The translations under genes were made by a program, and so were the position numbers. From Synechococcales cyanobacterium C42_A2020_086 (GTDB taxonomy: Bacteria > Cyanobacteriota > Cyanobacteriia > Elainellales > Elainellaceae): a DNA stretch of 48,251 nt. The stretch is taken from contig JACYLU010000019.1 in assembly GCA_015272325.1 (NCBI GenBank), forward strand, positions 1 to 48,251. The letters run 5' to 3'. Shown here one piece after another: positions 38,924 through 42,226 of this stretch; within the stretch, counting starts at the first letter, position 1; each line of letters starts with the position of its first letter. The notes under the pieces were generated by a model. That model was not told where the DNA came from and did no database searches. It saw nothing but the letters and a program-made list of their open reading frames with translations.

Positions 38924-39568
38924 CTAGCGGGGTCGCAGCCGCGGCACCTCACATTCGTCGCAGACAAAGTTCGCCAGGAATTCCTGAATGACTGCAATTG
39001 TCGGCTCGATCTGAGCGATGAATCCCTGAACGTTGCGAGCAGCCCGCGCCAGAACCACTCCGTCTACGAACACCTCTGGAGTTGGGTATTTCTCCAGAAA
39101 CTCCAGTAGCGAGATTTGGTTGTCGTCTGCCGCCGATAGAATAAATGCCGAGCGCAACGCTCGAATTTGCACCGCACCCTGCCGCGACTTAGTGTGAACC
39201 ACCCTGCCCATCTGGAACAGCACAAACTCACCGGGCAACGAGTAGGTGATCTGATCCACAAAGACCGGGTTGAGCCGCACATTCTGCGTTAAAACCTGCC
39301 GCACGGCATCCGGATCGGCATTCGTGAAATTCAGATACCAGCGCAATTGCCGGGTTGTTTCACCGGTTTCGGCAAAGGTCCGCAGATCCTCGATCGAGAA
39401 TGAACGACTGAGCGGTCCATAGGTGAAATAAATCCGATCTGCCGCCGCCGCCCGACCTGCAAGCGGCAGAACCACAGCCGCCGCAGCGAGCAAGAGGGAA
39501 CTTCCCCAGTTTCGCAGGGCTGCCTTTCGCGTCTGCCGCCCAGAACAGCATGATAGGGTCCTGGTCAT
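38924..39568 (-). CDS. DUF1400 domain protein (second of a tandem pair)
   Basis: A 214-residue exported protein. A signal peptide (hydrophobic about residues 20-40, AAAADRIYF after it) precedes a single DUF1400 domain: FTYGPLSRSFSIEDLRTFAETG, the FVDQITYSLPGEFVLFQMG segment and ISLLEFLEKYPTPEV. DUF1400 is usually the N-terminal part of cyanobacterial alpha/beta hydrolases; here the hydrolase domain is absent. The start overlaps the stop of the upstream paralogue by 4 bases (ATGA), indicating translational coupling. Function unknown. Confidence 0.85.
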   Translation of the reverse strand: MTRTLSCCSGRQTRKAALRNWGSSLLLAAAAVVLPLAGRAAAADRIYFTYGPLSRSFSIEDLRTFAETGETTRQLRWYLNFTNADPDAVRQVLTQNVRLNPVFVDQITYSLPGEFVLFQMGRVVHTKSRQGAVQIRALRSAFILSAADDNQISLLEFLEKYPTPEVFVDGVVLARAARNVQGFIAQIEPTIAVIQEFLANFVCDECEVPRLRPR

Positions 39569-40395
39569 AGCGAGTTCCCCTGGCGTTGTGGCTCGGTCGG
39601 CAGCGCATCGGTCTCAGCGGCAGCAGGCATTAGTGGTGCAGCTGCGGCTGTGGCCGTAGCCCCCGGCTGGCTATCGGCAAGCGGTAGGTCCTGGCAGTTA
39701 GCCGCTCTGGCCGCAACTGGAATCGCGGCTCCAGGCAGACGAGACTGCGGGCTGGTCGTAGGCGTATCGGTTGCCGCCGGAGTGGGGCAGTCGCAAATCA
39801 GGTCTTGCAGATATTCGCGAGCCACCTCCAAAGCCGGCAATACCCGCTCTACAAACCCTCTGACCGTGTTGTAGGTCGTTTCCAGCCCTGTCAGGTTGAG
39901 CCGAATCTCTGGACGAGGATACTCCCGAAGCACCTCCACCAGAGAAAGGCGATTGTCATTCTCGAAGGCATTGATGACTGCCGTTTCTAGCGGCTGCAAA
40001 TCATCGGGGACTGAAGCATCGCTTACGAGCTTACTGAGCTGAATCAAAACAAACTCCCCAGTTGAGCTGGCCAATCCCTGACGAATCTGGGCGACAAAAG
40101 AGGGGCTGATGTAGATTTCTGCGTTCAAGATGTCGCGGATAATCCGTCCAGCATCGGGATGACGGTCTACAAATTCCTGGAGATCCTGGCTCACGGGCGT
40201 TCCCGTTTCAATAAAGGATTCAATGTTGGCCAGAGGGACGGTTCGCTCGGTTTCTTCAAACCTCAAAATCACGCGCTCGGCAGCTCTCGCCGGAGTACCC
40301 AAGCCCAAGAAGCTGATGCCAGCCATTAGCAGCAATGCTTTGTTAAACCAGGGAACTAGGCGGCGGGTCGCCCGTTGGGAATGCATCAGTGTCAT
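39565..40395 (-). CDS. DUF1400 domain protein (first of a tandem pair)
   Basis: A 276-residue exported protein with a signal peptide ending around ARAAERVIL (about residue 38). The DUF1400 domain (about 38-205) reads RFEETERTVPLANIESFIETG, SPSFVAQIRQGLASSTGEFVL and LSLVEVLREYPRPEIRLNL. The C-terminal ~75 residues are P/A/T-rich and low complexity, ending without a hydrolase domain. It is the upstream partner of the 38924-39568 gene, with the same fold and a 4-base overlap. The two diverge considerably, so the duplication is old. Confidence 0.85.
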   Translation of the reverse strand: MTLMHSQRATRRLVPWFNKALLLMAGISFLGLGTPARAAERVILRFEETERTVPLANIESFIETGTPVSQDLQEFVDRHPDAGRIIRDILNAEIYISPSFVAQIRQGLASSTGEFVLIQLSKLVSDASVPDDLQPLETAVINAFENDNRLSLVEVLREYPRPEIRLNLTGLETTYNTVRGFVERVLPALEVAREYLQDLICDCPTPAATDTPTTSPQSRLPGAAIPVAARAANCQDLPLADSQPGATATAAAAPLMPAAAETDALPTEPQRQGNSL

Positions 40396-40876: not shown

Positions 40877-42226
40877 ATGGGACGAATCTTTGTTGCATCC
40901 AGCTACGGGGAGCGGCTTGGACCATCTCACCCAACCCTAGCGAGCGAGGGCCTAATTGTCGCGCAAGAGTTAATTCTATTGCGAGATCTGGTTGTTCAAT
41001 ACCTGCGCTCATTGCAGTACGAAGCGCTGTCGGTGCCGGAAGACCTCAGCCCGGCGCAAGCCATCACCTGGATCAACAGTCGGGCCCGAACGGGCGATGT
41101 GGCGCTTGACTTGCAGGCCGACTGCTCCCGCAATGCCACGATTCGCGGCACAACGCTGTTTTACATTGCCGGCAACGATCAGCGGCGCGTCCAAGCAGAA
41201 CAGTTGCTCCAAGCGTTTTTGCGGCAGGTGCCCCAACTGATGAGTCAAGGGGTGAAACCCGATATCCAGTGGGACATGGGGTACTCAGCTTTCTGTCGGC
41301 AGATTTTTGTGCCCGCGCTGACGATGATCGTGGGTGCGTTTACCAATCCCGATGACCGTCAGGTGATTCAAACCCAGCGGCAAGCCGTTGCCTTGGGGAT
41401 CGCGGAAGGGCTGGCCGTTTGGAGCCATGCGGTCTCCTCTGCGGCACTGCTGACGCCAACGCCAACCTACCCGGCAGTCAACGTGAATTTGAACGGAGCG
41501 CTGTTTTATGGCGAGGGCATTTTAGCCAACGGCAATTTCTATATACCAGTGGATCTGGTTGATCAGTTGGGAGTGGATCTGCCCCTGACGCCGCAAATAC
41601 GGCGGTTGAGCTACCGCAATATTGTCTATGTCCGGGCTATCGATCTGCGAGAGTTCAATGTGTCAATCAGTGCTGACAAAGATAGCCACTCGGTGATGCT
41701 GCGCTCGGCTCCCTTGGGATATCCGGGTCCAATTGATTGGATCATGGGACGGGGAACATCATCGGAGGTGCAGCTCATGATGTTTCTCAAAAGCCACCAC
41801 CCAGACAGCCTGATCGCGTTTGCTGAACTGCCGCGACTCTACCGGGAAGAAGCGGCGATTGAAGGGGTCAACTACGACATTGCCTTTGCTCAGATGTGCG
41901 TCGAGACCGATTTTTTGCGGTTTGGCGGTCAGATCCGGCCTGAACAAAATAACTTTGCCAGCCTAGGAGGAGTCGGCGACCAACCCGAAGGAGCCAGCTT
42001 TCGGGATGCTCGTATCGGCGTTCGGGCCCACATCCAACATCTAAAAGCCTATGCCAGCACCGAACCTCTCGTGCAAGAAAGCGTTGATCCTCGATTTCGT
42101 CTGCTGCGCCGGGGGGTAGCCCCTCAAGTGGATCAGCTCAGTGGGCGCTGGTCCGCCGATCTGCACTATGGGCAACGGATTAAAGCCGTAACTCGACTCC
42201 TCTATGAGTCGGCTGGCTTCCTCTAA
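40877..42226 (+). CDS. Amidase_3-like (degenerate) plus glucosaminidase domain protein
   Basis: A 449-residue protein. Residues 1-190 align with the cyanobacterial N-acetylmuramoyl-L-alanine amidase family (LSVPEDLSPAQAITWINSRA, GDVALDL, FYIAGND and GAFTNPDDRQVIQ are recognisable). The zinc-binding residues appear lost: where the family has a GHGG His, a TEA Glu, an EIHADA His and an MEVGFLTNP Glu, this protein has SSYGE, VAQ, DLQADC and MIVGAFTNP. About residues 290-445 form a LYZ2-type glucosaminidase domain in which the candidate catalytic Glu is kept (FAQMCVETDFLRFGG). The protein may thus cut or only bind peptidoglycan glycan. No signal peptide is evident. Confidence 0.8.
   Translation: MGRIFVASSYGERLGPSHPTLASEGLIVAQELILLRDLVVQYLRSLQYEALSVPEDLSPAQAITWINSRARTGDVALDLQADCSRNATIRGTTLFYIAGNDQRRVQAEQLLQAFLRQVPQLMSQGVKPDIQWDMGYSAFCRQIFVPALTMIVGAFTNPDDRQVIQTQRQAVALGIAEGLAVWSHAVSSAALLTPTPTYPAVNVNLNGALFYGEGILANGNFYIPVDLVDQLGVDLPLTPQIRRLSYRNIVYVRAIDLREFNVSISADKDSHSVMLRSAPLGYPGPIDWIMGRGTSSEVQLMMFLKSHHPDSLIAFAELPRLYREEAAIEGVNYDIAFAQMCVETDFLRFGGQIRPEQNNFASLGGVGDQPEGASFRDARIGVRAHIQHLKAYASTEPLVQESVDPRFRLLRRGVAPQVDQLSGRWSADLHYGQRIKAVTRLLYESAGFL

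Follow-up and report, generated by a model that had tools for sequence, protein, structure and literature searches.

An amidase fold without its canonical active-site residues, fused to a glucosaminidase, in a cyanobacterial ortholog of the filament-taper gene tftA

TftA of Nostoc punctiforme (Npun_F3584), the hormogonium tapered terminus morphoprotein, combines an amidase_3 and a glucosaminidase domain. Its expression is specific to hormogonia, and the gene is needed for tapered hormogonium tips, with knockout filaments ending in blunt termini (PMC10710843). Enzymes of the Amidase_3 type bind zinc through His, Glu and His and use a further, catalytic Glu, as set out in PMC9929850. The discoverers of TftA already pointed out that in the N. 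punctiforme protein a His of this set is replaced by K81 and a Glu by Q152, described one absolutely conserved Glu in the glucosaminidase domain and obtained an inconclusive zymogram (PMC10710843). A later paper terms TftA a putative amidase (PMC11351039). Among the matches listed for the open PMC literature, no amidase pseudoenzyme of this kind was found, and among those listed for glucosaminidase or endolysin only PMC10710843 names TftA; the word 'endolysin' occurs there once, in a reference title.

Here, we describe a relative of this gene from Synechococcales cyanobacterium C42_A2020_086, located in a stretch of 48,251 nucleotides (contig JACYLU010000019.1) that is referred to as the window. 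The gene lies at 40877..42226 on the + strand (ATG to TAA, coordinates including the stop) and encodes a protein of 449 aa. In an NCBIfam scan, residues 1–449 match positions 1–450 of the equivalog model horm_taper_TftA (NF050040) at 628.8 bits, against a cut-off of 500. A class-level search matched 210 of 388 genomes, and in most gene-bearing relatives the match runs end to end at approximately 47–69% identity. By sequence, the window gene is an ortholog of tftA, a morphogene that tapers the filaments of filamentous cyanobacteria. The protein has the same two domains as N. punctiforme TftA but differs from it in that four amidase residues are replaced instead of two. For comparison we used an ortholog set of 237 rows, each a distinct full-length protein (258 ORFs collapsed for identity, with 3 partial ORFs left out), to which the TftA sequence of N. 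punctiforme itself does not belong.

The amidase half comprises aa 1–186 (40877..41434, +) and is assigned to the Amidase_3 fold by Pfam and an AlphaFold2 (AF2) model, although Pfam Amidase_3 (PF01520) scores 23.6 bits on aa 57–179 (E 5.9e-5), below the cut-off of 27. Its active site appears to be lost. Tyr10 (40904..40906, +) stands at the position of a zinc-ligand His that is kept in 220 of 237 orthologs, Val28 (40958..40960, +) at that of the zinc-ligand Glu (kept in 217 of 237) and Gln80 (41114..41116, +) at that of the second zinc-ligand His (136 of 237). Ile151 (41327..41329, +) takes the place of the catalytic Glu, a position at which 101 of 237 orthologs have Glu and 103 have Gln. In the alignment of the 237 orthologs these residues correspond to H10, E29, H81 and E152 of the intact ortholog L018, and the same numbering (10, 29, 81 and 152) in the Nostoc rows is in line with the published K81 and Q152. 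When three amidases from the same genome and two viral ORFs were aligned with the 71 intact orthologs in three MAFFT modes, all five carried His, Glu, His and Glu at these positions. A PDB profile alignment agrees for CwlV at 10 (His), 81 (His) and 152 (Glu) but places its ligand Glu three columns away from 29. Set against the Amidase_3 enzymes CwlV (1jwq) and N. punctiforme AmiC2 (5emi), the window protein differs at every zinc-ligand position and at that of the catalytic Glu. An initial annotation of this DNA had claimed that the metal ligands and the catalytic Glu were replaced in an otherwise recognizable fold with the segments SVPEDLS, WINSRA and FTNPDDR. These segments are present, and the ortholog alignment confirms the replacements, as does the comparison with same-genome amidases, in which the canonical residues fall on the replaced window positions.

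The predicted structure points the same way with regard to the fold. In the AF2 model of the window protein, 14 of the 16 ten-residue blocks of aa 31–190 in the amidase half have a pLDDT of at least 80, and the model is poor at aa 11–22, beside the first ligand position. Solved amidases overlay the amidase-half model with Z 17–22 overall, among them 4rn7 (Z 22.3, rmsd 2.3 over 171 residues), AmiC2 (Z 21.3 over 165 residues) and CwlV (Z 20.8 over 166 residues). Together with the end-to-end relatives, these superpositions argue that the pseudo-amidase ORF is not a product of chance. In the secondary structure of the model, the amidase half is followed by a beta-rich linker region at aa 191–285 (41447..41731, +; bounds approximate).

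A different or partly retained metal site could in principle leave the domain with amidase or some other hydrolase activity. Residues particular to the window alone could form such a site, and partly degenerate orthologs, in which H81 has become Glu or Gln or E152 has become Gln, could still hold zinc. However, neither the window's clade (6 rows) nor the 10 rows with all four sites lost has a new shared His or Cys that might act as a replacement ligand, and the shared His, Cys, Asp and Glu residues are nearly all present in intact orthologs too; those common to all 10 four-site-loss rows in the amidase half are only D38, D75, D130 and C141, and these four also occur in the majority of intact orthologs. 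We regard retained metal-dependent activity as very improbable.

The C-terminal half contains a GH73 glucosaminidase domain at aa 321–439 (41837..42193, +; Pfam PF01832, 32.5 bits over a cut-off of 30.2). Glu343 (41903..41905, +), the conserved Glu of its CVET motif, is Glu in 236 of 237 orthologs, and on the basis of GH73 motifs we presume it to be the catalytic residue. The glucosaminidase keeps its Glu, as had been stated in the initial annotation, whose overall picture of a pseudo-amidase fused to such a domain is supported by sequence and predicted fold. In the model, aa 258–449 resemble the GH73 domain of LytB (7pj3; Z 14.4, rmsd 2.6 over 136 residues), with pLDDT under 50 at aa 347–374 and 400–412. 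The likeness to LytB is in fold only, given that PDB searches with one sequence (E up to 1) and with a 15-row profile (E up to 5) returned no sequence match of the TftA GH73 to solved GH73 enzymes. The GH73 motif Glu is missing from only one of the 237 orthologs, L168, which has Ser there and all four amidase residues, a single case opposite to that of the window.

The loci of the 237 distinct full-length orthologs were chosen from a ranking based mostly on likeness to the window. In 71 of these orthologs the four amidase residues are all retained, so that the TftA family as a whole is not amidase-free. The intact site is found in 2 of 71 rows of a subset leaning to Nostocales compared with 69 of the 166 other rows (165 genomes). 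Replacements affect the catalytic Glu in 136 rows, the second His in 101, the ligand Glu in 20 and the first His in 17, and changes at a single site concern the catalytic Glu in 60 rows, the second His in 23 and the ligand Glu in 1, where it is Asp. In most sampled orthologs, one or more of the residues required by standard amidases of this fold are missing, despite the putative-amidase label in PMC11351039, and this moves attention to the glucosaminidase.

Site loss is scattered over the family tree. A quick tree built from only the linker and GH73 part and rooted for drawing requires no fewer than 17 changes of the intact state. If branches under SH-aLRT 90 are collapsed and polytomies are resolved for fewest changes, the minimum is 12 changes, also when only losses are allowed, and the state with all four residues lost has at least 4 origins. 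All of these counts are minima from an intact root and a few of the changes may hence be returns, mainly at position 152, for which the full tree gives a losses-only count of 40 versus 16. In a more careful tree of 49 rows, 16 rows of the window's family, all of them short of at least two of the four residues, group in a single clade (ultrafast bootstrap 98) that adjoins three intact rows. The window and its sister genus form one clade (support 100), joined to the other four-site-loss clade at 90, and L226/L227 and L070 are placed elsewhere. The losses close to the window are, on this tree, not all independent. What is new here is the scale: amidase-site loss appears as a recurrent event in TftA orthologs, of which the window is an extreme case. 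The family offers a repeated natural experiment in which one active site of a two-enzyme protein is lost and the fold is kept. Genome G002 carries two TftA copies (L193 and L234); one of them is degenerate, with Tyr, Glu, Arg and Thr at the four positions, and the other retains the complete set of amidase residues.

Selection on the two halves was compared in 59 reciprocal-nearest pairs that share no rows, using only pairs with usable dS (16, 22, 17 and 4 pairs with 0, 1, 2 and at least 3 residues lost). In this order, the summed amidase dN/dS is 0.073, 0.078, 0.060 and 0.074, and the ratio of amidase to GH73 dN is 1.22, 1.08, 0.91 and 1.88. If all pairs closer than 60% identity are used, which overlap, the corresponding amidase dN/dS values are 0.156, 0.104, 0.110 and 0.156 and the amidase/GH73 ratios 1.01, 1.02, 1.15 and 1.95 (11 pairs with at least 3 lost). 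The pair ratios and dN/dS together indicate that constraint on the amidase half is about as before when one or two residues are lost, and that the loss of nearly all of them comes with an approximately twofold relaxation that does not release the domain.

The amidase half could nevertheless be a decaying passenger, with GH73 alone being of importance. Amidase dN exceeds GH73 dN in all 4 reciprocal-nearest pairs with at least 3 residues lost, and around the window it does so 2–3-fold (amidase half 0.37–0.46 and GH73 0.14–0.18 between the window and its sister genus); this faster change means that constraint on the amidase half is weaker than on GH73. However, amidase dN/dS is still approximately 0.07 in the pairs with at least 3 lost, and several positions of the amidase half (W66, N101, R104, G126, D130, G136 and R142) are identical in 237 of 237 rows, including the degenerate ones, and we consider a mere passenger unlikely. 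Purifying selection still acts on the amidase fold that has lost its site, although more weakly than on GH73, and such selection after the loss supports the earlier suggestion that the pseudo-domain keeps a selected function.

The most likely explanation is that TftA acts through its glucosaminidase and that the amidase fold is kept for binding or structure. Peptidoglycan would then be remodelled by the glucosaminidase alone, and the amidase fold would be a non-catalytic module that either binds the wall or its stem peptides or positions GH73 through the linker. A pseudo-amidase that binds stem peptides and directs glycan cutting, as first proposed in the initial annotation, is a plausible form of this.

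The other role proposed there was that of a regulator of true amidases at septa; on this reading, the pseudo-amidase would control enzymes like AmiC or compete with them. An active-looking paralogue had been suggested as something to look for, and five Amidase_3 loci of the genome score over the cut-off; the three that were aligned all carry the four residues. The presence of apparently intact amidases, together with the amidase fold retained in the model, leaves room for a septal regulator, but we found nothing in favour of it and the phenotype of the N. punctiforme ortholog sits at filament termini (PMC10710843). We therefore hold regulation at septa to be quite improbable.

The surroundings of the gene are a housekeeping setting, with ispH, a DUF1400 protein, an ORF without an NCBIfam match, an AhpC/TSA_2 protein and bioB as nearest neighbours. 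In the flanks examined, each of the two upstream ORFs and the AhpC/TSA_2 ORF recurs in 1 of 80 ortholog loci, and bioB and ispH in none of the 80. Of the two adjacent ORFs upstream of tftA (38924-40395, -), the first matches DUF1400 and the second is without an NCBIfam match. Their counterparts in L038 (68% and 50% identity) are likewise neighbours, and either ORF matches the L038 counterpart of the other as well, at approximately 26%.

In 203 of 258 full-length ORFs at most 14 in-frame codons separate the start from the preceding stop, and both AlphaFold models open their first strand at residue 4. By eye, the 35 ORFs with at least 20 upstream codons have no obvious signal peptide. A word search of PMC10710843 found no mention of TftA export, and the open PMC literature on hormogonia and signal peptides yielded nothing further. 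Given that most orthologs have no room for a signal peptide, TftA may get to the wall by some path that does not depend on a standard Sec or Tat signal. The joint reading, in which a tftA ortholog with a non-catalytic amidase fold is exported by a non-Sec/Tat route and remodels the wall through GH73 only, is in our judgement rather probable. With it, two questions of the TftA paper, wall hydrolysis and confinement to the filament tip, become directly testable.

Phage endolysins are among the closest described systems outside the family. The GH73 half shares 38–57% identity with ORFs on viral contigs (80 loci retained from 157 relatives), and a full intact ortholog matched 16 phage records, several of them annotated as endolysin, none of which covers 80% of the ortholog. 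Residues 1–449 of the intact ortholog L113 align with PHROG 435, an endolysin, and the window protein matches PHROG 435 and PHROG 8124 in its GH73 half only. A Pfam scan of 8 picked viral ORFs found Amidase_3 plus GH73 in 4, Amidase_2 plus GH73 in 3 and GH73 alone in 1, with the GH73 of L267 just under the Pfam cut-off. In these endolysins (PHROG 435, PHROG 8124 and the IMG/VR loci L267, L271, L281 and L334) an amidase is followed by GH73, the same order as in the window protein, which has this architecture with a site-less amidase half. Endolysins are phage-encoded, whereas the window tftA sits among housekeeping genes, as far as its nearest neighbours were examined. In a tree without a cellular outgroup, the GH73 domains of TftA (26 rows) and of viruses (80 rows) fall on opposite sides of one branch, a split that shows kinship but gives no direction for any transfer. 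From these sequences, an endolysin origin of TftA is possible. A bolder version, in which filamentous cyanobacteria have turned a phage endolysin into a shape gene and its amidase half has repeatedly become a non-catalytic module that binds the wall, would give the signal-less protein access to the wall only next to a lysed neighbour or at a break in the filament, and would by this means confine its action to filament tips; we consider this unlikely.

Relatives of the GH73 half also occur elsewhere. On plasmids it matches 11 records (Clostridioides 7, Priestia 3 and Brevibacillus 1). In seven genomes of family f24, genus g44 (G058, G072, G084, G104, G130, G160 and G207), a separate GH73 open frame of 219–232 codons lies beside tftA and is 59–62% identical to the GH73 of the TftA query. 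A 107-aa ORF at G000:C6:164348-164647 (L266) resembles the C-terminal part of the TftA GH73 at 54% identity, without the stretch that bears the conserved GH73 Glu, and shares its locus with ORFs that by eye are CHAP-like and peptidoglycan-binding-like.
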